Assembly: GCA_002281755.1 (NCBI GenBank)
Contig: NCHB01000006.1
Span: 1 to 64,000, forward strand
Reading direction: 5' to 3'
DNA: 64,000 bases
Source: Sulfurovum sp. 16-42-52
Lineage (GTDB): Bacteria > Campylobacterota > Campylobacteria > Campylobacterales > Sulfurovaceae
Below the pieces are notes generated by a model. It ran no database searches, had not been told where the DNA came from, and was given only the letters and a program-made list of their open reading frames with translations. Shown here piece after piece: positions 38,979-51,994 of the stretch (position 1 is its first letter; each line of letters begins with the position of its first letter). A program made the translations under genes and the position numbers.

Positions 38979-40949
38979 TTACTTTGTTGCATGGACAAGA
39001 CGCTCGATCTGTCCAACAATGCTAGGATCTTCAAGTGTAGAAGTATCTTGAGTGATCTTTTCACCTTTTGCAATCGCTCTAAGAAGACGACGCATAATCT
39101 TGCCTGAACGGGTCTTTGGAAGATCCGGGACAAATACCATGTCATCACACAAGGCAATATTACCGATCTCTGTTTGAATGATTTTATTAATTTCTTTGAT
39201 GGTCTCAAGCTCATTGGCTACGTCATCTTTATGTTCTACAGGAACAGACTTGAGTACGATGTAGGCAAAGATGCCTTCTCCTTTGAGTTCATGCGGTTTG
39301 CCTACCACTGCCACCGCAGCGACATTGCTGTGCTTTTTGATCGCTGCTTCTACCTCAGCTGTACCCATTCGATGTCCCGACACATTGATGACATCATCGG
39401 TTCTTCCCGTGATGGTAATGTAACCATTTTCACCGTAGATTGCACCATCTCCTGTAAAATAAACAGGTTTTCCCTTATGGATTACATCACCGAAGTAAGA
39501 TTTTCTGAAACGTTCGTCATCGCCCCATACCCCACGTATCTGTGAGGGCCATGGGCGCGTAACACACATATAGCCGCTTTCGCCCACACCTACCTTTTCT
39601 CCTGTAGCAGGATCGAGAATCTCAGCCATAATACCCGGCAAAGGAAGGGTCGCACAGGCTGGTTTGATGGGTGTAGCACCCGGAAGCGGAGAGACGATGT
39701 GCCCGCCTGTCTCTGTCTGCCAATAGGTATCTACGATAGCACACTTGCTTTGCCCTACTTGCTCATAGTACCATTTCCATGCAGGTGGATCGATAGGCTC
39801 GCCTACGGTTCCAAGTACTTTTAGGCTGCTAAGATCATATTTTGCCGGTTCATCCTCTCCCATTTTGTGCAGTACACGGATGGCTGTTGGTGCTGTGTAA
39901 AATTGGTTTATCTGATGTTCTTCTACCATTTTCCACGGTCGTCCTGCATCAGGGAAGGTAATCACACCCTCAAACATCACCGTCGTAGCCCCCATCGCAA
40001 GCGGCCCATACACGATATACGTATGCCCTGTTATCCAGCCCACATCCGCTGTGCACCAGTAGGTATCATTTTCTTTCACATCAAATACCCACTCCATGGT
40101 CATCTGTGCCCAGAGAATGTACCCTGCGGTGTTATGCTGTACGCCTTTTGGTTTACCTGTACTACCCGAGGTATAGAGCAGAAAGAGAGGATCTTCACTC
40201 TCCATAGGTTCAGCTTCGCAGACGCTTGATTTATCTTTAATGAGTTCATTGTAGGAGTAGTCGCGTCCTGCTACCCATGTGACCTCTTCATTGTTTCTCT
40301 CTACAACCAAGACTTTTTGAACCGGTGTCTCACCTGTCAATGCTGCATCAACCACAGGTTTGAGCATGTATGGTTTTGTTTTTCTGTACGCACCATCAGC
40401 GGTGATGACCACTTTTGCCTGCGCATCTTCTATCCTGTCACGGAGTGCTTCAGATGAAAATCCGCCAAAGACGATGGAATGTATCGCACCGATACGTGCA
40501 CAGGCAAGCATCGCATACGCCGCCTCATGGATCATCGGCATATAGATAACAACTCTGTCCCCTTTTTTGACCTCAAAATCTTCTTTAAGAAGGTTGGCAA
40601 ACTTGTTGACCTGCTCAAAAAGCTCAAGATAGGTAATCACTTGTTTATCGCCACGGTCACCTTCAAAAATGATCGCTGCTTTATTTTTTCGAGTTCCTAG
40701 ATGACGGTCGATACATTGGTGCGCAACATTGAGTTTACCGCCATCGAACCATTTCACAAAAGGTGCATTAGACTCATCCAGTACTGTATCATACGGTTCA
40801 AACCAATCGATCTTCTCATCTGCATACGCTTTCCAGAAACCTTCATAATCTTCAGTAGCCTTTTTGACCAAAGCATTGTATTCATCCATACTTTTGATTC
40901 TTGCATCTTTTGCAAATTCAGGGTTTGGCTGATAGATTTCTTGTAACAT
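38979..40949 (-). CDS. acs: Acetyl-CoA synthetase
   Basis: Converts acetate, ATP and CoA to acetyl-CoA, AMP and pyrophosphate. At 656 residues it is full length, with [11 protein letters not shown] (P-loop), [11 protein letters not shown], and the C-terminal [11 protein letters not shown] containing the Lys that acetylation controls. ATGAGGATG-type sequence precedes the start. It lies downstream of actP, and the window also has ppa, which would remove the pyrophosphate. Confidence 0.97.
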
Positions 40950-41004: not shown

Positions 41005-41637
41005 TTAAACTCTACGCAATGCGCCTTTATTTCTGGACATATTTTTTAACTTGATATACATCATGGCTGTCATCACCGCATCATTGAGGGCATCATGCCC
41101 CGGCAGGTTCGGCAAAGCCAGATCTTTAACCATGGAATCAAATCTCAAATCGATATGCCCCTGAGGTATTCTTGCAATTTTCTGATCATAATAAAGTGCA
41201 GAGACCTCTTCTTTTCTGTTTGGTAGTGTTATACCAAACATGGGCTTAAGAGTTTTGTTTATCATCGCCACATCAAACTCAAGATAGTAGCCCACCAGTG
41301 TTCGGCTGCCTATATAATACAGAAATTTCTCTATCGCTTCATCCAAAGGAATCGCTCCGTCCAAATCACAGTTTCTTATTTGATGAATGGTGATACTGTG
41401 ATGGGTTATTTCTTCTTTTTGCTGAACCAAGAGATGTAACGCTTCATTGGTTAAAATTTTGTTTCCTTTTATTTTCACTGCCCCTATAGAGATGATCTCA
41501 TCAACTTTTGGGTTAAGTCCTGTTGTCTCACAATCAAACACGACATATTCATCTGCCTTAGCCTCTTCAAACAAAAAAGAAAAACGCTCCTCTTTTAAAC
41601 GATTAAGATTGCGTTTTTGTTTCCATCTTTCAAACAT
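41005..41637 (-). CDS. DnaQ-like DEDDh 3'-5' exonuclease
   Basis: 210 residues. VVFDCETTG gives the first D and E, GYYLEFDVAM the second Asp, and PGHDALNDAVMTA the His and last Asp. It is similar to the exonucleases that sit next to CBS/DUF294 genes in acetate loci of other proteobacteria, and is distinct from the replicative epsilon subunit. It starts 3 nt after the DUF294 gene stop. Substrate unknown. Confidence 0.88.
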   Translation of the reverse strand: MFERWKQKRNLNRLKEERFSFLFEEAKADEYVVFDCETTGLNPKVDEIISIGAVKIKGNKILTNEALHLLVQQKEEITHHSITIHQIRNCDLDGAIPLDEAIEKFLYYIGSRTLVGYYLEFDVAMINKTLKPMFGITLPNRKEEVSALYYDQKIARIPQGHIDLRFDSMVKDLALPNLPGHDALNDAVMTAMMYIKLKNMSRNKGALRRV

Positions 41638-41640
41638 ATC

Positions 41641-43467
41641 TTAGCCTACGACTGACAGATGAAAATGATGACCCAAACGTTTTTTAAACGCATTGACTGT
41701 CTTTAACACCTCTTTGAGTGCATCTCTTTCGATTTTACTCAGAGTATTTAACGAAATGTAGTTATCCATAGGCTCGCCTTTTGACTGTTTGATAAGCTGT
41801 GCATCCAATCTAAGAGTATTGATCACTTCCAAAGCTTCTATGAGATTCTTCGCATCTTCTTTACTCAAGTAGCCGATCGTGTTCAGTTCTTTAATGCGCA
41901 AAGTGGTATTTGTCAGCGTTATCCGGTGTTCTAAAGCCAGCCCTCTCACCCCGTGAACCAAGGCGAAGAGTGCACCTTTTTTGATATCAATCTGATTTTT
42001 ATGTTCTTTATCGGTGCTGATGAACTGCGAAAATAGTCCCAAAGGAGAGTCAAAATGCTCAATAGCACGCATAAAATGCGGTAATATGGTCTTTGTCTCC
42101 TGCACTTTTTGTATCATATAGGCTATGAGCCTTTGATGCAGGCTGACCTCTCCTGCCACACTCATGGAATCAAAAAGTATTGCCATATCCATAAACCCCT
42201 CATAGGTTGGAGCATCCACCCATGTGTCGATATCATTTTTATATGCCCTAAGTGACTTTGCCCATTTGGGGTTGATGATCATCACATTGCCTGCGCAGCG
42301 AGGAAACCCGATCTCATCCAGTACGGCTATAAAGCGGTGTGTGATTTCTTCCAACATCTTGGGCTCAAAACTATCTTCAAATATCAATGCATTGTCCTGA
42401 TCCGTACGCAAGAGCTGCTCCCCTCTACCTTCGCTTCCCAGTACAATAAAGTTTGACTTTTCGTGCCACTCCTTTGGCATGATGAAAGTAAAAATTTTCC
42501 TATACATCTTACGGTTGATCTCTGAGACAAGTTTAGCGATATACCGTGTTTTAATGCCTTTGGTATGTAAGGCTTCTATGATAACATTGACCCTTTTAAC
42601 AGCAGCGATCACCGCATCAAGCGTCTGTGCTTTTTCCACTTGAACACTTACTAGATGTGTTTGATTGGAAAAATAGCTCAACAGGTCAATTAACTCTAAA
42701 ATACCTATGGCTTTACCCTGTTCATCCAAGACAGGAAGATGTTTGATCGACTGCCCTGTCATCAGTAGAAGAATGTTAAAAAGCAGCTCTCCCTCGTGTA
42801 TGGTAGAGAGGGGATAGGTTTGTATATCTGCTGCCACCCTGAGGTTTTTTGTCTCTTTGTTGAGTATATAGTGACGCAGATCTTTATCGGTGATGATCCC
42901 ATACCCTTGAGCATTTTCAACTAAGATACAAGTCGCATTTGCTCTGTCCATCTGATCCAGTGCTTCTAAAATCGGTGTCTTGGCTTGCACCATAAACACT
43001 TCATGAAGGATTGACGTATCGACTCTTGATACCATTAAATCACCAATAGCTGAAAACTCTTTTTTGTCTTTTAGCAATGCCATCCTCTCTACCATCGTAG
43101 AAAAAAAGTATGCCCTAAATGCCTGATTTTCTTGTGTCAATGTTAAAAATACCTTTGCCGGTATCTCATAACAGATCAGCTCCTCTTCAACACGATAGTC
43201 ATAATCCGAAGTTTTATTCTCAATCAGTTCGATACCACCAAAGGTATCATGATTTTGGTACACGTCAATCATCTCTTCATCTTTTTGACACACTACCCTG
43301 CCTTTGATAATGTAATAGAGTGATTCCAATGCTGTATGTCGCTGTATAAGAACCGTTGATTTGGGGTAATAGGCAATGTGGGCAGAAGTTTCTATTTCCC
43401 CAAAAGACCCCTTGTCGAGGTATGAAAAGGGGATGTCTATTTTCAAATTTTCCAATAATGCAATCAT
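41641..43467 (-). CDS. cNMP-binding/CBS/DUF294 nucleotidyltransferase-like regulator
   Basis: About 608 residues. Order: an N-terminal cyclic-nucleotide-binding-like domain (20-130), a CBS pair (about 150-270), then the DUF294 nucleotidyltransferase domain with LGSEGRGEQLLRTDQDN and a C-terminal DUF294_C helical domain. GS-x-x-R plus DQD suggests an active fold. Such proteins accompany actP and acs in other genomes. The ATG at 43467 is preferred; the TTG at 43500 overlaps a stem-loop. Confidence 0.85.
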   Translation of the reverse strand: MIALLENLKIDIPFSYLDKGSFGEIETSAHIAYYPKSTVLIQRHTALESLYYIIKGRVVCQKDEEMIDVYQNHDTFGGIELIENKTSDYDYRVEEELICYEIPAKVFLTLTQENQAFRAYFFSTMVERMALLKDKKEFSAIGDLMVSRVDTSILHEVFMVQAKTPILEALDQMDRANATCILVENAQGYGIITDKDLRHYILNKETKNLRVAADIQTYPLSTIHEGELLFNILLLMTGQSIKHLPVLDEQGKAIGILELIDLLSYFSNQTHLVSVQVEKAQTLDAVIAAVKRVNVIIEALHTKGIKTRYIAKLVSEINRKMYRKIFTFIMPKEWHEKSNFIVLGSEGRGEQLLRTDQDNALIFEDSFEPKMLEEITHRFIAVLDEIGFPRCAGNVMIINPKWAKSLRAYKNDIDTWVDAPTYEGFMDMAILFDSMSVAGEVSLHQRLIAYMIQKVQETKTILPHFMRAIEHFDSPLGLFSQFISTDKEHKNQIDIKKGALFALVHGVRGLALEHRITLTNTTLRIKELNTIGYLSKEDAKNLIEALEVINTLRLDAQLIKQSKGEPMDNYISLNTLSKIERDALKEVLKTVNAFKKRLGHHFHLSVVG

Positions 43468-43498
43468 GACGTAGTTTTCTGCTCTCTGGTATGGTTCC

Positions 43499-43516
43499 AA
43501 AGCCCTAAAGGACTTT
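43499..43516 (-). other. Intercistronic stem-loop after actP
   Basis: AAAGTCC/GGGCTTT (one G-T pair) closes a TTTA loop in the minus-strand RNA, 11 nt after the actP stop. It could set actP mRNA levels apart from the downstream genes. Confidence 0.4.
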
Positions 43517-43526
43517 AGAACTGTTT

Positions 43527-45197
43527 TTAGTGACTCGTGTTGGCATCATCTGCCCCGATACCTGTTTGACATCTGATATCCTGCGCATCAAACGCATCGA
43601 TACATCGTTGTGCATCATCTGATTTGTCTGTAACAGAAAAGAGCCAAATAGCAACAAATGCAAAAGGCATCGAGAACACAGCCGGGAAGCTATAAGGTAC
43701 AATAGGTGAAGCATTACCTAAGATATCTACCCACACACCAGGCCCGAGGATGACAAGAACGAGTGCAGTGATCAAACCGATATATCCGCCCACTACTGCC
43801 CCTCTTGTTGTCAGCTTTTTCCAGAAGATAGACATAAACAATACCGGGAAGTTGGCTGATGCAGCGATAGTAAATGCCAAAGCAACCACAAATGCGATAT
43901 TTTGTTTTTCAAACGCGATACCAAAGAAAATTCCCGCAATACCGATAGCGACAGTCGCCATTTTTGAAACATTCATCTCTTTTTTCTCATCTACTTTAGA
44001 TGTTGCAAAGGCATTGGCATACAGGTCATGTGATATGGCTGAAGCACCTGCCAATGTAAGACCCGAAACAACGGCAAGAATCGTAGCAAAGGCAACGGCG
44101 GATATAAATCCTAAGAAGTAGTCACCGCCTACTGCATGAGCAAGCCAGACTGCTGCCATGTTGTTCATCCCTTTGAGCGTAACGCCATCTGCTGCCAGAT
44201 AAGAACCTGCAGGATCACCCAGTACAAGCACGATAGCACCAAAACCCATAATAAATGTCAGTACATAGAAATAACCGATAAGCCCTGTTGCAACAAAGAC
44301 TGATTTTCTTGCCTCTTTTGCATCCGCAACCGTAAAGAATCGCATCAGAATATGAGGCAGACCTGCCGTACCGAACATCAGAGCGATACCTAAAGAAATC
44401 GCTGAAATAGGATCGCTTACCAGTCCGCCGGGGCTCATGATGGCTACACCCTGAGTGTGAATCTCTGTAGCTCTGGTAAAAAGTGCATCAAAGCTAAAGC
44501 CAAACTTCGCCATCACCATAATGGACATAAACGTTGTACCGGCAAGAAGCAACACCGCTTTAATGATCTGTACCCAAGTGGTTGCGAGCATGCCACCGAA
44601 CACCACGTATAAGATCATCAATATCCCCACCAGAACAACGGCAAACTCATAATCCAAACCAAATAAAATCTTGATCAATTGACCGGCACCGACCATTTGG
44701 GCAATCAAATAAAGAAGAACAACAGACAAAGAGCCCAGGGCGGCTAAAATTCTGACCTGTTTTTGTTTGAGTCTATAGGCAGTCACATCGGCGAAGGTAT
44801 ATTTACCAAGATTTCGAAGCTGCTCGGAGATCATAAAAAGTATGATAGGCCAGCCCACCAGAAAACCGATTGAAAAGATGAGACCATCGTACCCTTTAAG
44901 GTATACCATACCGGTAATGCCCAGAAAAGAGGCTGCCGACATATAGTCTCCTGCAATCGCCGTACCGTTTTGCGTACCTGTGATACCGCCGCCTGCAGTA
45001 TAAAAGTCTTTAGCCGATTTTGTTCTTTTTGAAGCCCAGTAGGTCACACCCAGTGTTGCAGCCACAAAAATAAAGAACATCACAATCGCAGGAATATTCA
45101 TAGATTCCGCTTTTGCCGTCTGACCGATATCTGTACCCACAGCCAAAGCAGCGGTAAGCCCCACTGTCATCAATAGAGATAAAATTCTACCCACCAT
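43527..45197 (-). CDS. actP: Acetate/cation symporter ActP
   Basis: Sodium:solute symporter (SSS) family, inner membrane. 556 residues with about 13-14 helices. The N-terminal leader (about 1-24) is followed by [30 protein letters not shown]-type sequence, diagnostic of ActP. Preceded by a DUF485 gene with a 1-nt overlap, exactly as yjcH-actP in E. coli. This strongly supports acetate (or glycolate/pyruvate-like) uptake. Confidence 0.94.
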
Positions 45198-45517
45198 TAA
45201 TTCATCTCCTTTTTCAAATCATTTTTTAACGCATTTAAGATGCCGTCAAATTCACCATTGGCTCTTCTGACATACACACCTGTCATGACAAACGCAAAAA
45301 CGATAATGGCTAGACCGATAGGAATACCCCATGTTGCCATACCATCAGGGCTTATTTTGGTTCCCAATGTCTCTGGGCTGAATGCAATAAATAAAATAAA
45401 TGCATAATAGACCACCAGCATGATCACAGTCAGTGTCCATGCAAATTTACTTCTTGTACGAACCAGTTTTTGATACTTCGGATTGTTTTTGATCGTTTCT
45501 ACCTGTTCTTTGGTCAT
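45197..45517 (-). CDS. yjcH: DUF485 (YjcH-type) membrane protein
   Basis: 106 residues with two membrane helices (about 25-48 and 62-84). [19 protein letters not shown] is the family N-terminus. It is the standard partner of ActP; its role is not defined. Its stop overlaps the actP start by 1 nt. Confidence 0.92.
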
Positions 45518-45532: not shown

Positions 45533-46891
45533 TTAAAAATTGTAGTTTGCTATGAGGCGATATTCATCCCAATCCAAACCCGGTGCAAAATCTCTAGGAT
45601 AATTGGCTCTGAGTTTTACATTCAGACCTTTGAGGGCTTTAACATCATATGCTACCTCAAATCCTGCCTCTGTTGCAATCCACGCTGTACCGTTTACATA
45701 ACTATTTGCGGCTCCGACATCAAAATGTGTGTAGTAAGCAGCAGTGCTTACACCATACTCAGAAATGGTATAGGCTCCAGCCATTTTCCATGAATCGGTC
45801 TCTGCAAAAAACTGATGTCTTGTTACCATACCTTGGGTATATGCCGGCATACCGCCCCAAGGCGTGATAATACCGCCATGGGTTGCACCGTCACTCTTTC
45901 CGGTTGAAGAGTAAGCCGCATATCCGCTAAGCGAACCATATGATACACCTATTTTACCTCCAAAGTAGTCACTGTTTACGAAACCGGCAAAAGTATCTCC
46001 ACTATCACGTTCATTGATGTATTGTGCAGCAACGTTTAGCTTAACCGTATCTGTGAGGGCCCAAACATAGTCTGCATCCAAATAGACTGCATTAAGAATA
46101 TTCCATGCGATGTAGTCCCATGCCTGAAGTTTTAGATTTTCTATTCCCGTATACACTGCAGCCAACGCCGTAACACCTGCCGTACTGTTATCGGTACTGC
46201 CATCAGCATTCAAGTCCGTATCGCCAAGTGCAACGGTTCCCATATTGACAAAATCACCGCTGAGCGCCTGATTCATACCCAAACCGTAACCGCTGGTTAC
46301 CCCAAGCATGCCTCCAGCATAGATATTGCCAAAGGTACCTACGGTTTCTCTGGTCACATGTGCTGCAATTAGTGTCGTATTTTCTATATCTGTATTGCTC
46401 AGTACGGCTGCTTCAAAAAGGTTTGGCAGCATTCTTGCATCATCTATGCCTACCATAGGGGTATTGAGTTCCTGACGGCCTATTTTAATGGTGGTATTAC
46501 CATAGGCGTAGTTTATATATGCCTGTCCGATAAAAGCATAATTGTCAAAGTCTCTTCCGTAAAGGGATGGCTCATAATTTGCAGCACCCAAAATATCTGC
46601 ATCTTCATGATGTATATCAAAACCATACGTTCCATAGGCTGCCGCAGCAAAAGTAAATCCGCTGAAATTAGGTGATTGATAGCCTATGTATCCGCCAGTA
46701 GTGAGTGCATTACGGTTATTGTTTGTTGTACCGCTATAGGTTCTGTCTATATAAAAAGTTCTGGCCTGTCCAAAAATCTCACCATAATCCGGCTCTGCCT
46801 CTGTCTGTACTACCGGCTCAACAGGCTTGATCTCACCTCCTGCCATAAGCACCGCAGACACCATGACCGATAACCCCAGGTACTTTCTCAT
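45533..46891 (-). CDS. OprD/Opr-family outer-membrane porin
   Basis: 452 residues with a signal peptide (about 1-17), a mature start GGEIKPVEPVV and a 16-18 strand barrel pattern. GNTTIKIGRQELNTPMVG and the C-terminal YRLIANYNF (terminal Phe) are typical of Campylobacterota Opr porins. It leads the DUF485-actP-acs gene train with a 15-nt gap, so it probably lets the small carboxylate through the outer membrane. A tandem repeat operator candidate lies about 43-63 nt before its ATG. Confidence 0.88.
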   Translation of the reverse strand: MRKYLGLSVMVSAVLMAGGEIKPVEPVVQTEAEPDYGEIFGQARTFYIDRTYSGTTNNNRNALTTGGYIGYQSPNFSGFTFAAAAYGTYGFDIHHEDADILGAANYEPSLYGRDFDNYAFIGQAYINYAYGNTTIKIGRQELNTPMVGIDDARMLPNLFEAAVLSNTDIENTTLIAAHVTRETVGTFGNIYAGGMLGVTSGYGLGMNQALSGDFVNMGTVALGDTDLNADGSTDNSTAGVTALAAVYTGIENLKLQAWDYIAWNILNAVYLDADYVWALTDTVKLNVAAQYINERDSGDTFAGFVNSDYFGGKIGVSYGSLSGYAAYSSTGKSDGATHGGIITPWGGMPAYTQGMVTRHQFFAETDSWKMAGAYTISEYGVSTAAYYTHFDVGAANSYVNGTAWIATEAGFEVAYDVKALKGLNVKLRANYPRDFAPGLDWDEYRLIANYNF

Positions 46892-46933
46892 CTCTTCTCT
46901 TTTGTATCTATTGGACTATGAGTATGAACCAGC

Positions 46934-46954
46934 AACATAGCATTAACATAGCAT
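46934..46954 (-). promoter_or_regulatory. Tandem direct repeat, candidate response-regulator operator
   Basis: Two exact copies of AACATAGCAT (plus strand) lie at 46934-46943 and 46945-46954, an 11-bp period. That is one helical turn, the arrangement of OmpR/PhoB-type binding sites. It lies upstream of the porin gene, which lacks a good -35 box, and next to a gene for an OmpR-type regulator. The rest of the 147-bp gap shows nothing clear. Confidence 0.55.
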
Positions 46955-47038
46955 CCGCAAAAAGAAACAGCAAAGATGTATTAAAAAAAGTTATCTGTGT
47001 ATATTGGTTACAGAAGAAAATACTTTTAGCGTCAAAAT

Positions 47039-47701
47039 CTATTGTTGTTTTAGAAGCCTGTATCCGACTCCCTTGAGTGTTGAGATCAGATCTTCTTTGA
47101 GTACTTGACGCACTCTGTGTATCTCTGCTCTGATGATGGCATTATCCACAGGGCTGTCATCCCATGCGTAGTGCCTAAGCATTTCAAAATCAACCACTTT
47201 ATTGATATTGAGAGCAAAAAGCTCCATGATCTGCGATTGTTTATGGGTCAACAGTTGTGCTTCACCGTCAAATAACAGACAGTTGCTCTCAACGTCATAA
47301 GCATACATTTTTGATATCTTGATAAAACCCTTTGCCCTGATATCTGCGATTTTCAACAATCTCTCAATATGCAGGCTTAATTCTTTCAGATGAAAAGGTT
47401 TTTTCAAATAGTCATAACATCCCAAAGCATAGGCTTGGGAAATCTGCTCTATTTCGGTGATGGCAGAGATGAAGATAGTCGGTACATGTATCTTCTCTTT
47501 TTGCACTCTGTCCAGCAAAGAGAGTCCATCTATCGTAGGTATATTGATATCAAAGATAAAAAGGTCATAGTTGTTCACCACGATGCTTTCGTATGCTTCC
47601 TGTCCATCTTCAAATGCGCTTACCTTATACCCCGTATCTGTGAGATACTCTTTGATAGCACTTTGCAACATCAGTTCATCTTCAAGCAATAGAACTTTCA
47701 T
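47039..47701 (-). CDS. OmpR/PhoB-type response regulator
   Basis: 220 residues. The receiver domain has DINIPTIDGLSLL with the phosphorylated Asp near residue 51 and the KKPF Lys near 102. The C-terminal winged helix (about 125-220) has LTHKQSQIMELF and NAIIRAEIHRVRQVL. The ATG directly follows the kinase stop, so the two are coupled. It is transcribed towards the porin and acetate genes. Confidence 0.93.
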   Translation of the reverse strand: MKVLLLEDELMLQSAIKEYLTDTGYKVSAFEDGQEAYESIVVNNYDLFIFDINIPTIDGLSLLDRVQKEKIHVPTIFISAITEIEQISQAYALGCYDYLKKPFHLKELSLHIERLLKIADIRAKGFIKISKMYAYDVESNCLLFDGEAQLLTHKQSQIMELFALNINKVVDFEMLRHYAWDDSPVDNAIIRAEIHRVRQVLKEDLISTLKGVGYRLLKQQ

Positions 47702-49279
47702 TTACGTTTCCTTCCTGAACCTATAGGAAAACAGGGTCATTGCATCGCTGGAGCTTACAGAGATTTTTACATTTTCCTTTTGACAGATAGTATAGACGAT
47801 CTCAAGTCCCAAACCAAAACCGCCGCGTACATCATTTTCACGCTGATAGGCTTTAAATATACGTTGCGTATCTTCTATTTTAGGCGAAAGCGTTAAAAAT
47901 TCCAAAACAATCTCTTCATTTTCTTCAGCAAGTCTGACCTTGACATCCGTACCTTTATTGGCATATTTAATCGCATTGGACAAATTGTTATCCACAATTC
48001 TCTGCAGCTCTTCAGGACTAAAATAAAGCCAAAGCCCTTTTTGTATGTCGGAGATGATCGTGTGTTGGTTTCCTTTTGCTATCTCATAGAAAAAGTCAAT
48101 CCTTTCTTCAAGAAATGCAGAAACATCAAGCCGCTTTTTCACATAGTCAAAACGGTTTTTTTTGACCATATAGCTCAAATCTTCATAAATTGTACTGATG
48201 ATCTTGCTGGCTGCTTCTATTTTGCTCAGATATCTGTTTTCACCTTCTTTCATTTTAAACAGATCAATATGTGTCATAATCACTGCCAAAGGTGTATTGA
48301 TTTCATGAATAGAATGTTTAATAAAACTGTCTTGGGCTTTCACAAGCGAGGCATTAAAATCTTTTTCCCGCACAAGCAGTCTATTTTGCTCACTGAGGTC
48401 TTTAGTTTTTTGCTCCACCTTTGATTCAAGTACACGATTTAACGCTTGCAGTCTCTCTTTGCGTTTGTGAATGACACGGATCATTGTATTGATGTAAGGC
48501 ACCATTTTTTTAAACTCAGACAGCCGTATCTTGGCTTCATCTATTATGACATAACCGGATGAAGCCTCTTTAAAATAGTTGCTAAAAGAAGCTATCTCTT
48601 TGTGCAGGATACGATTTGTGATGAAAATACCCATAACCCCCACTACACATAAAACACCCAACAAAAAAAGCATTTTTATGACATATTGATTGAGTCTGCT
48701 TTTGAGTATGGCTCGCTCTTCTTGTATCTGTTTGTTCACTTCATCAAGATAAACACCCGTACCCACCATCCAACCCCAAGGTTCAAATGATTTTGCATAA
48801 GAGATCTTAGGGCTTAATGAACCCGTGGTCGGTTTTATCCATTGGTATTCAACAAATCCGCCCTCTTTTTGACGTGACATATCGATAAGATCCCTAATGA
48901 CCATCACCCCGTTGATATCTTTGGTCTCATAAAGATTTTTGCCTACATTTGGTTTTTGTACCGGATCAGAAAGCACTTTACCCTGAAAATCATAGATAAA
49001 TATATATCCTGTACCGTCCTGCCTGCCATACAAATGCTCTATGGCATCGAGTATCTGTTTTTTAAGTAGTGTTTCATCTGTGTCACTCTGTCTACCCTCA
49101 TACGCATGGCTGATGAAATGCAGTACACGCGTCGTATCAAAAATGAGCGTATCTTTTTGTTTTTGTATAAATGTTGTTTGAATGTTTTTCGCTTCATTTT
49201 CAAAATTTTGATATTCGTTATAGGCGACAAGGGCAGAAAACACAATAATGACAATGAGCATTACCAGCATACCGATCAA
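47702..49279 (-). CDS. Cache-domain sensor histidine kinase
   Basis: At least 525 residues. A first membrane helix, a periplasmic single Cache domain (about 35-195, with LYGRQDGTGYIFIYDFQGKVL and AKSFEPWGWMVGTGVY), a second helix, a coiled coil, then the kinase: H-box SIHEINTPLAV, N-box DNNLSNAIKYAN and G-box RGGFGLGLEIV. Cache domains of this type often bind small carboxylates. No ATG or GTG fits AAAGGA at 49323-49328; ATT at 49315 is 7 nt from it and adds 12 residues. The TTG at 49279 has no ribosome site. Confidence 0.9.
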   Translation of the reverse strand: MIGMLVMLIVIIVFSALVAYNEYQNFENEAKNIQTTFIQKQKDTLIFDTTRVLHFISHAYEGRQSDTDETLLKKQILDAIEHLYGRQDGTGYIFIYDFQGKVLSDPVQKPNVGKNLYETKDINGVMVIRDLIDMSRQKEGGFVEYQWIKPTTGSLSPKISYAKSFEPWGWMVGTGVYLDEVNKQIQEERAILKSRLNQYVIKMLFLLGVLCVVGVMGIFITNRILHKEIASFSNYFKEASSGYVIIDEAKIRLSEFKKMVPYINTMIRVIHKRKERLQALNRVLESKVEQKTKDLSEQNRLLVREKDFNASLVKAQDSFIKHSIHEINTPLAVIMTHIDLFKMKEGENRYLSKIEAASKIISTIYEDLSYMVKKNRFDYVKKRLDVSAFLEERIDFFYEIAKGNQHTIISDIQKGLWLYFSPEELQRIVDNNLSNAIKYANKGTDVKVRLAEENEEIVLEFLTLSPKIEDTQRIFKAYQRENDVRGGFGLGLEIVYTICQKENVKISVSSSDAMTLFSYRFRKET

Positions 49280-49985: not shown

Positions 49986-50786
49986 TTAAAACCCAACTTC
50001 TTTTTTGCGGTTATCAATATATCTTCCCACTCCGGTAACTATCCCTTTTGCTAACTGTTCCTGATAGTCAGGTGTAAAAAGTCTTTTTCTCTCTTTAGGA
50101 TTGGTGATATACCCGACCTCAACGAGTATCGAAGGTCTGCTAGCTCCGACCAAAACGTAAAACGGTGCCGGTCTCACACCGCCATTTTTTACGCTTCTAT
50201 AGTTTTTATTGAGCTGTCCATACATATTATTTTGCACATCGATAGCAAGCTTATGGGATTCTATCACTTTAGGTCCGCTCAACACCGAATCCAAGATTAC
50301 ATTTTGGCTCAGGGCATCGGTTCCCATCAACACCGAAGCATTTTCCCTCGCGGCTATACTTTGGGATCTTGCATCTCGTGTTTTTTGCAAATAATAGGTT
50401 TCAACCCCTTCAACCACATTAAAACGCTTCATATCAGCAATGGCATTGGCATGCACAGAGATAAACACGTCAGCATTTTTACGATCGGCAATTTTTGTAC
50501 GCTGATCCAATCTCAAAAATCTGTCGTTAGACCTTGTCAAGTATATCTTGTAACCCTGTTTTTTAAACTCTTTGTAGAGTTTTTGAGTGATCTGCAATAC
50601 TGCATCTTTCTCTTTTTTACCACTGTTGACCGCTCCGCTGTCCTGTCCGCCATGCCCCGCATCGATGACAACAACATTGGAAGATCTATCGATATGTAAA
50701 GCACTGCCGCCGCCACATCCTGCGAGCATAAAAAGGACGGCAATGCCCATCATAAGTGAGTTCTTGTTTCTTAATATTTGTTTCAT
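49986..50786 (-). CDS. N-acetylmuramoyl-L-alanine amidase, lipoprotein form
   Basis: Amidase_3 family, cuts the bond between MurNAc and the stem peptide. About 266 residues: a lipobox MLAGC (Cys24) then the catalytic domain directly, with VVIDAGHGGQDSGAV, ISVHANA and VEVGYI carrying the zinc His and Glu. There is no AMIN domain. The ATG at 50786 with GGATTGGGA is preferred; ATG at 50801 overlaps the upstream stop. It is a close tandem paralogue of the upstream gene. Confidence 0.88.
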   Translation of the reverse strand: MKQILRNKNSLMMGIAVLFMLAGCGGGSALHIDRSSNVVVIDAGHGGQDSGAVNSGKKEKDAVLQITQKLYKEFKKQGYKIYLTRSNDRFLRLDQRTKIADRKNADVFISVHANAIADMKRFNVVEGVETYYLQKTRDARSQSIAARENASVLMGTDALSQNVILDSVLSGPKVIESHKLAIDVQNNMYGQLNKNYRSVKNGGVRPAPFYVLVGASRPSILVEVGYITNPKERKRLFTPDYQEQLAKGIVTGVGRYIDNRKKEVGF

Positions 50787-50800
50787 TCCCAATCCTGTCA

Positions 50801-51994
50801 TTAAAAATCTATCTCTTTTTTTCTATTGAGCAAATAGGTATCTACGCCTTCTGCGATCCCTTTTGCGACAAGACTCTGGTACTGGGGGTTACACAATCTC
50901 TGACGCTCCGTAGGATGGGAGATATACCCCACTTCAACCAACACAGAGGGTCTGCTTGCACCGACTAACACCCAAAACGGTGCATGTCTTACCCCACCAT
51001 CTTTGACACTGCTGTATCTGCTGCGCACATTGGCTAAAATACGTCGCTGCACATCAATGGCAAGCTTGTTGGACTGAACGATCTTTGGCCCAGAGAGAAC
51101 CGAATCCAAGATAATATTGCGACTCAGCAAACTTGCTCCCTGAAGCACCGATTTATTTTCTCTCTCAGCGATACGCTTGGATCTGGCATCTCTTGTTTTT
51201 TGCAAAAAGAAAGTCTCGATGCCCTGCACTTTATTTTGTTTGTTTTTAGGAACCGAGTTGGCATGTATCGATATAAAAGCAGCCGAGTCTTTCTGATCGG
51301 CTATCTTGGTACGCTGCGGCAGTGTCAAAAATCGATCGGTTGAGCGTGTCATATAAACAGGATGCCCTCTTTTTCTAAGCTCTTGTTCGAGTTTTTTGGC
51401 GATTTGCAAGACAACATCTTTCTCTTTTTTTCCTCCCGCAACCGCACCGGCATCCTGTCCGCCGTGTCCTGCATCAATGACGATGAGTTTGGAACGGCTG
51501 GATCGACTGGGTAGCGGTATTGCGCTTTCTCTAGGAAAAATTTTAGGCTCTGTTACACCTTTACTGGGTAAAGTTCTAGGATTTTTTTTCGGTGCAATGT
51601 TTACCTGTTTAGCAAACACTTTTTTAGGGGGTTTGGGCAAGGCAATATAGTACTGGTTATCAGGGAAGAACGGCTGGTAGCCAGCAAATTTTAAACGTGT
51701 GTCTGCCTCAATCACAATCCGTACAATCCCAGGTTTATACTGTGAGATGCGTACATTATCAGGGAGTCCTGATGCAACACGGTTGTGTGCCAAACGTGTG
51801 TTTTTAAAATCATAAATCATGCGATAAGGTGCATTCAGCCCAGAATGAGCCAAATCATTTTTACCCAAGGGTTTGGAAAAATAAAGCTGCAGTTCACCCT
51901 TTTGTACGAGCGCTTTCTGCAAAGTATTGATACCTGAGACCAGCAGGGTATTCAAAACAAAAAGTAAAATGAAAATCCTACCGAGTTTTGCCAT
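50801..51994 (-). CDS. amiC: AmiC-like N-acetylmuramoyl-L-alanine amidase with AMIN domain
   Basis: Periplasmic cell-separation amidase. The 397 residues have a signal peptide, an AMIN domain (about 40-125, with GLPDNVRISQYKPGIVRIV) that localises to the septum, a basic linker, and amidase_3 with VIDAGHGGQDAGAV, HANS and VEVGYI. EnvC/FtsEX, its usual activators, are encoded at 58.5-61.3 kb. It starts 3 nt after the upstream stop and overlaps the second amidase gene by 1 nt. Confidence 0.92.
   Translation of the reverse strand: MAKLGRIFILLFVLNTLLVSGINTLQKALVQKGELQLYFSKPLGKNDLAHSGLNAPYRMIYDFKNTRLAHNRVASGLPDNVRISQYKPGIVRIVIEADTRLKFAGYQPFFPDNQYYIALPKPPKKVFAKQVNIAPKKNPRTLPSKGVTEPKIFPRESAIPLPSRSSRSKLIVIDAGHGGQDAGAVAGGKKEKDVVLQIAKKLEQELRKRGHPVYMTRSTDRFLTLPQRTKIADQKDSAAFISIHANSVPKNKQNKVQGIETFFLQKTRDARSKRIAERENKSVLQGASLLSRNIILDSVLSGPKIVQSNKLAIDVQRRILANVRSRYSSVKDGGVRHAPFWVLVGASRPSVLVEVGYISHPTERQRLCNPQYQSLVAKGIAEGVDTYLLNRKKEIDF

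Follow-up and report, generated by a model that had tools for sequence, protein, structure and literature searches.

What does a short tandem repeat do between the gene of a response regulator (RR) and a porin gene that seems to open an acetate operon? The sequence-only reading of the window, by which we mean the whole 64 kb stretch of DNA that was analyzed, took it for an operator bound by the OmpR/PhoB-type RR encoded nearby, and the comparative genomics reported here supports this proposal. Judging from sequence comparisons, the repeat is very probably an activator operator through which the adjacent Cache-kinase/OmpR-type two-component system controls the acetate operon.

The repeat and its locus

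The 10-bp unit AACATAGCAT is indeed present twice on the forward strand, at 46934-46943 and 46945-46954, with a single T between the copies and hence a period of 11 bp. In the direction of transcription (minus strand), the 21 bases read ATGCTATGTTA-ATGCTATGTT. They lie in the 147-bp gap between the OmpR-type RR gene and the OprD-type porin gene, around 85 bp from the stop codon of the former (47039) and 43 bp from the start codon of the latter (46891). All genes of the locus from the kinase to acs are on the minus strand (Table 1). The RR gene starts 747 bp from the repeat, in agreement with the earlier estimate of less than 1 kb on the same strand.

Table 1. Features of the locus in the window, with the role proposed for some of them
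Feature	Coordinates	Strand	Remarks
Sensor histidine kinase, Cache domain (sCache_2/dCache_2), HisKA, HATPase_c	47702..49279	-	Proposed signal input
OmpR/PhoB-type response regulator (RR), 220 aa	47039..47701	-	Response_reg + Trans_reg_C; proposed binder
Second conserved element TGTAACCAATATACACA	46996..47012	-	Matches TGTWAC-N5-TACACA
Proposed RR operator, 11-bp-period direct repeat	46934..46954	-	ATGCTATGTT (46954-46945), A (46944), ATGCTATGTT (46943-46934)
Predicted -10 hexamer CATACT	46921..46926	-	Starts 8 bases past the box, 7 bases between
OprD-family porin	45533..46891	-	First gene after the proposed operator
DUF485 membrane protein (YjcH type)	45197..45517	-	Putative operon member
Cation/acetate symporter ActP	43527..45197	-	
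cNMP-binding/CBS/DUF294 nucleotidyltransferase-like protein	41641..43500	-	
3'-5' exonuclease (PRK09145 equivalog)	41005..41637	-	
Acetyl-CoA synthetase (AcsA equivalog)	38979..40949	-	

This is the sole exact lag-11 repeat of at least 10 bp in the window, where about 0.1 are expected from Markov-1 sequences. The search of the rest of the genome that had been suggested at the outset shows that it is the only strong site in 1.99 Mb, no other site being found even when 3 mismatches to the exact repeat are allowed. A degenerate family consensus (see below) has one exact match in this genome, which is the repeat itself, and the next best match has 2 mismatches. At 3 mismatches or fewer, there are 90 matches for 89 in the reversed control. 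Since the degenerate matches equal those of the control, we rejected the idea of a wider regulon built on further copies of the box in this genome.

Of the 80 named loci with RR orthologues, many have the gene order of the window (Sulfurovum, Sulfurimonas, Hydrogenimonas, and others). Among named RRs, the closest to that of the window, with 89% identity, belongs to a Sulfurovum MAG. Some loci, including that of Nitratifractor, have a distant relative of the symporter family (~30% identity) in place of ActP and DUF485. Elsewhere in the window, two adjacent ORFs at 49986-51994 (271 and 397 aa) contain near-identical stretches (IDAGHGGQDSGAV and IDAGHGGQDAGAV) and are probably duplicated amidase genes.

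Conservation of the box and geometry of the promoter

To score the relatives, we used a self-similarity test that assumes no motif. A lag-11 repeat with at least 9 of 10 identical positions was found in 36 of the 76 regions near RR orthologues. The other lags from 6 to 25 were found in 1-5 of these regions each, and shuffled sequences gave 1.35. The family consensus is TGCTAYDTT-N2-TGCTAYDTT, hereafter the box, which we searched allowing at most 3 mismatches. It is present, in a single orientation, in 60 of the 61 porin/symporter promoters of RR-bearing relatives (window counted in), and in the remaining one (L075) the sequence is a run of Ns. Its carriers include Sulfurovum, Nitratifractor, Sulfurimonas, Hydrogenimonas, and other genera. 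All first half-sites share TGCTA, and all second half-sites share GCTA. Across the order, 115 of 397 genomes have an exact box, compared with around 5 matches in the reversed control. This conservation puts the repeat far above chance, and the objection foreseen by the sequence-only reading, that relatives with the same gene order might lack the repeat, does not hold.

Where the porin and the RR gene are apart, the box tracks the porin and not the RR gene. It is found with the porin in the 8 loci where 0.8-6.8 kb separate the two (L107, L109, L120, L123, L125, L130, L135, L140), and only 1 of the 16 RR genes on contigs lacking a porin/symporter has a clear box downstream, at a contig end (L101). 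The number of units is also changeable, since genome G051 (L046/L160) has three tandem 11-bp units before its porin and the closely similar locus of G024 has two.

The hexamer that starts 8 bases past the box has an A at position 2 and a T at position 6 in all 60 box promoters (e.g., CATAAT, TACTAT, CATACT, TATGAT). At other offsets, a -10-like hexamer is found in at most 40% of them. In the window, transcription would start near 46914, some 7 bp past the -10, giving a leader of ~23 nt with a purine-rich ribosome-binding site. Given the fixed position of the -10, the box would span approximately -40 to -20, where a -35 element would lie. To judge by sequence alone, this is the position of an OmpR/PhoB-type operator: upstream of the -10, in place of the -35, at a fixed spacing. 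Such constancy of spacing and orientation relative to the -10 is expected of activation beside RNA polymerase. We found no consensus -35 in the window promoter, no canonical -35/-10 promoter or intrinsic terminator at the locus, and no Rfam family at gathering score within 46800-47100. Sigma-70 promoters of the phylum Campylobacterota often have no -35 element, and its lack here is therefore weak evidence for activation.

A second conserved element is found further upstream (Table 1). In 51 of the 60 promoters, GTWAC precedes the start of the box by 56 or 57 bases, with ACA 9-10 bases further on, which results in a palindromic outline, TGT-N11-ACA. The element is conserved at the equivalent place in L061-L140 and is also found beside the boxes of other genera. 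Its left half is present in 3 of 5 TRAP promoters, and it was not found in the promoters of ActP genes from RR-less loci. The genome of the window has one exact match, and the few near-matches (9 with 1 mismatch vs 5 in the control) leave the idea of a global-regulator site unsupported. As its left half resembles the half-site of the box (TGTTAC vs TGCTAC), its binder may be the RR itself, or just as well another regulator. A simple operator model leaves this element unexplained.

The probable regulator behind the box and the alternatives

The presence of the box follows that of the RR. Among Sulfurovum genomes with ActP, it is found in 24 of the 24 that have an RR orthologue and in none of the 5 that do not (Fisher P = 8e-6, a value that ignores relatedness among genomes that are not phylogenetically independent). 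The RR-less ActP loci have a different gene organization. When only Sulfurovum genomes at least 90% complete are considered, 11 of the 14 that have the RR carry an exact box, as against none of the 11 that lack it. One RR-less genome (G042; L166, just before 1230) has a C-terminal scrap of the porin (..DWDEYRLIVNYNF) directly before DUF485-ActP, which suggests a joint loss of kinase, RR, box, and porin.

The locus thus combines two direct half-sites ~11 bp apart with a gene for a regulator made of a receiver and a winged helix (Trans_reg_C). The AlphaFold model of the RR has these two domains (mean pLDDT of 86), and the structures that it matches best include DNA-bound PmrA, KdpE, PhoP, and CosR. 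Residues 187-200 (NAIIRAEIHRVRQV) form the modelled recognition helix, in which A188, I190, R191, E193, and R196 are invariant across 34 sequences. The signature IRAE-x-x-R is found in this helix in nearly all box-linked RRs, one TRAP paralogue having IIAE, and is absent from four other RRs taken from three box-carrying genomes.

Paralogous RRs, ~48% identical to that of the window, adjoin TAXI-TRAP/porin operons, and the same box is in the divergent gap of all 5 such loci examined, which were chosen via the box search. In L147, L148, L149, L150, and L151, a shorter kinase and the paralogous RR are divergent from the TAXI-TRAP transporter/porin operon, with the box between them. The association of the box with a near-identical helix signature in these paralogues would fit recognition of the box by this lineage of RRs. 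Since several boxes and many RRs occur together in some Campylobacterota genomes, paralogous RRs could also bind the box.

The switch we propose would work as follows. The Cache-domain kinase would sense acetate, or another small carboxylate, and phosphorylate the RR; acetate as the signal is suggested by the gene content and by the Cache domain. Two RR molecules would then bind head-to-tail on the two 11-bp-spaced half-sites TGCTAYDTT. Placed at approximately -40 to -20, 7 bp before the -10, they would recruit RNA polymerase and activate, rather than repress, a predicted single transcript of all six genes, porin-DUF485-ActP-DUF294-exonuclease-Acs.

The same RR, or its unphosphorylated form, might instead act as a repressor that blocks RNA polymerase at the -35/-10 spacer until the signal relieves it. 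The box does cover the spacer just upstream of the -10, a common place for repressors. Yet repression needs neither the exact spacing nor the single orientation relative to the -10 seen in 60 of 60 promoters, there is no consensus -35, and genomes that keep the symporter without the RR also lack the box. Furthermore, the authors of the PceP study regarded that RR, whose geometry is similar, as an activator (PMC7755780). We thus find repression unlikely. We also think it quite improbable that the repeat is a mere accessory to the upstream element, with a second dimeric regulator exerting the main control at about -90. The regular placement of GTWAC and the palindromic outline speak for such a regulator, but the box is better conserved than the element, which several box-bearing promoters lack or have only in reduced form. 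Nor does the genome contain another exact copy of the element, as it would for a global regulator.

Assigning the box to the adjacent RR also requires considering that it may be merely a neighbor, the chief binder being one or more other RRs of the OmpR family. Matches to the RR number as many as 30 or more per genome, some genomes have 3-6 boxes, and the TRAP-linked paralogues share the box. Still, it is the presence or absence of the orthologue of the window RR that predicts the box, the helix signature common to box-linked RRs is absent from the other RRs compared, and the genome of the window has one box only, while its next RR among the matches listed is just 35% identical. This makes another chief binder very unlikely. 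A chance or neutral tandem duplication without function deserves hardly any credence: with about 0.1 such repeats expected in the window, the repeat is not extreme when taken alone, but conservation across the order with a fixed geometry refutes a chance origin.

Other putative targets of the box and comparison with known systems

In the family f8, exact boxes precede genes for Pta, DUF485-ActP, lactate permease, and TRAP DctP, as well as those for a hydrogenase small subunit and a molybdopterin oxidoreductase. In six f8 loci (L205, L208, L210, L216, L217, L220), the exact box is before the phosphate acetyltransferase gene, with acetate kinase-like genes flanking. In L226, L227, L229, and L230, it lies between another OmpR-type RR (214 aa) and a DctP-type TRAP solute-binding gene, and some of these genomes have further boxes on the opposite strand. 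Four loci of the Sulfurovum group (L156, L157, L158, L159) have a variant, ATGCTATCTTAATGCTATTTT, with a -10-like AATAAT downstream, before an adenylate kinase-like gene. In a Sulfurospirillum-like genome encoding a PCE dehalogenase, the box separates ActP from the RR orthologue. Many of the putative targets belong to carboxylate uptake or C2 metabolism, though not all.

One may speculate, with clear reservations, on an order-wide "carboxylate box" serving a family of paralogous RRs at acetate, TRAP/TAXI, and lactate-permease operons, together with a bipartite acetate promoter. The acetate operons would comprise both porin-ActP-Acs and Pta, and the tandem box at about -30 would act together with the palindrome at about -90. 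The latter would be occupied either by the same RR, arranged differently, or by a partner dedicated to it and as yet undescribed.

The proposed switch is of a standard kind, while the site appears to be undescribed in Sulfurovum and its relatives. RRs of the OmpR/PhoB family bind direct repeats ~11 bp apart as tandem winged-helix dimers, PhoB doing so over the -35, and the direct repeats of M. tuberculosis PhoP are spaced as 7 bp + 4 bp (PMC4832192, PMC3348028). The one-turn spacing that the sequence-only reading had associated with this binding mode thus matches published operators. The pho box and the PhoP sites share with the box of the window direct repeats about one helical turn apart, and differ from it in half-site sequence, regulon, and signal.

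The closest system with experimental validation is PceP (RR2) of Sulfurospirillum, an OmpR-type RR that binds, in gel shifts, CTATA repeats with an 11-bp period over the -35 (PMC7755780). Its cis-element, CTATW-N17-CTATW, resembles our site in phylum, family of RR, CTAT core, 6-nt gaps, location over the -35, and proposed activation. The window has CTATG-N6-CTATG, which matches the core and the period but not the W, in two copies (three in G051). The PceP site has three copies, of which the outer two are the proposed site, and lacks the TGCTAYDTT extension; it controls organohalide respiration, whereas our box precedes a putative acetate operon. We rejected PceP as an orthologue of the window RR: in a genome matching the PceP locus, the RRs next to the dehalogenase share 23-24% identity with it and have different recognition helices (e.g., SSAAIRSLVRDIRK). 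The dehalogenase genomes encode a separate orthologue of the window RR, 52% identical.

Among carboxylate systems, MctS is the best named model for the window kinase, with a Cache domain, at 122.7 bits, a score far short of the 700 bits required for the equivalog. MctS/R of Rhizobium regulates the monocarboxylate symporter MctP, and the description consulted mentions no porin/acs operon (PMC9100948). The literature searched describes no acetate two-component system or regulator in Campylobacterota. The scavenging of acetate by otherwise autotrophic members of this phylum is thought to be important in sulfidic habitats (PMC4674564), and our analysis provides a precise proposal for an operator, its regulator, and its gene set, common to many genera.

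The task of such a switch is shared with CrbS/R (MxtR/ErdR) of Vibrio and Pseudomonas, which acts through the ACTU motif on acs, actP with its membrane partner, and a cNMP/CBS/nucleotidyltransferase gene (PMC5715377). The proposed switch would likewise govern this set of genes through a single promoter motif. CrbR is a LuxR-family RR, ACTU is an inverted repeat, and the kinase CrbS is fused to an SLC5 domain, whereas in the window the RR is of the OmpR type, the repeat is direct, and the kinase has a Cache domain. By analogy, the system of the window seems to meet the same need by a parallel route, matching the acetate switch of Gammaproteobacteria with different parts.
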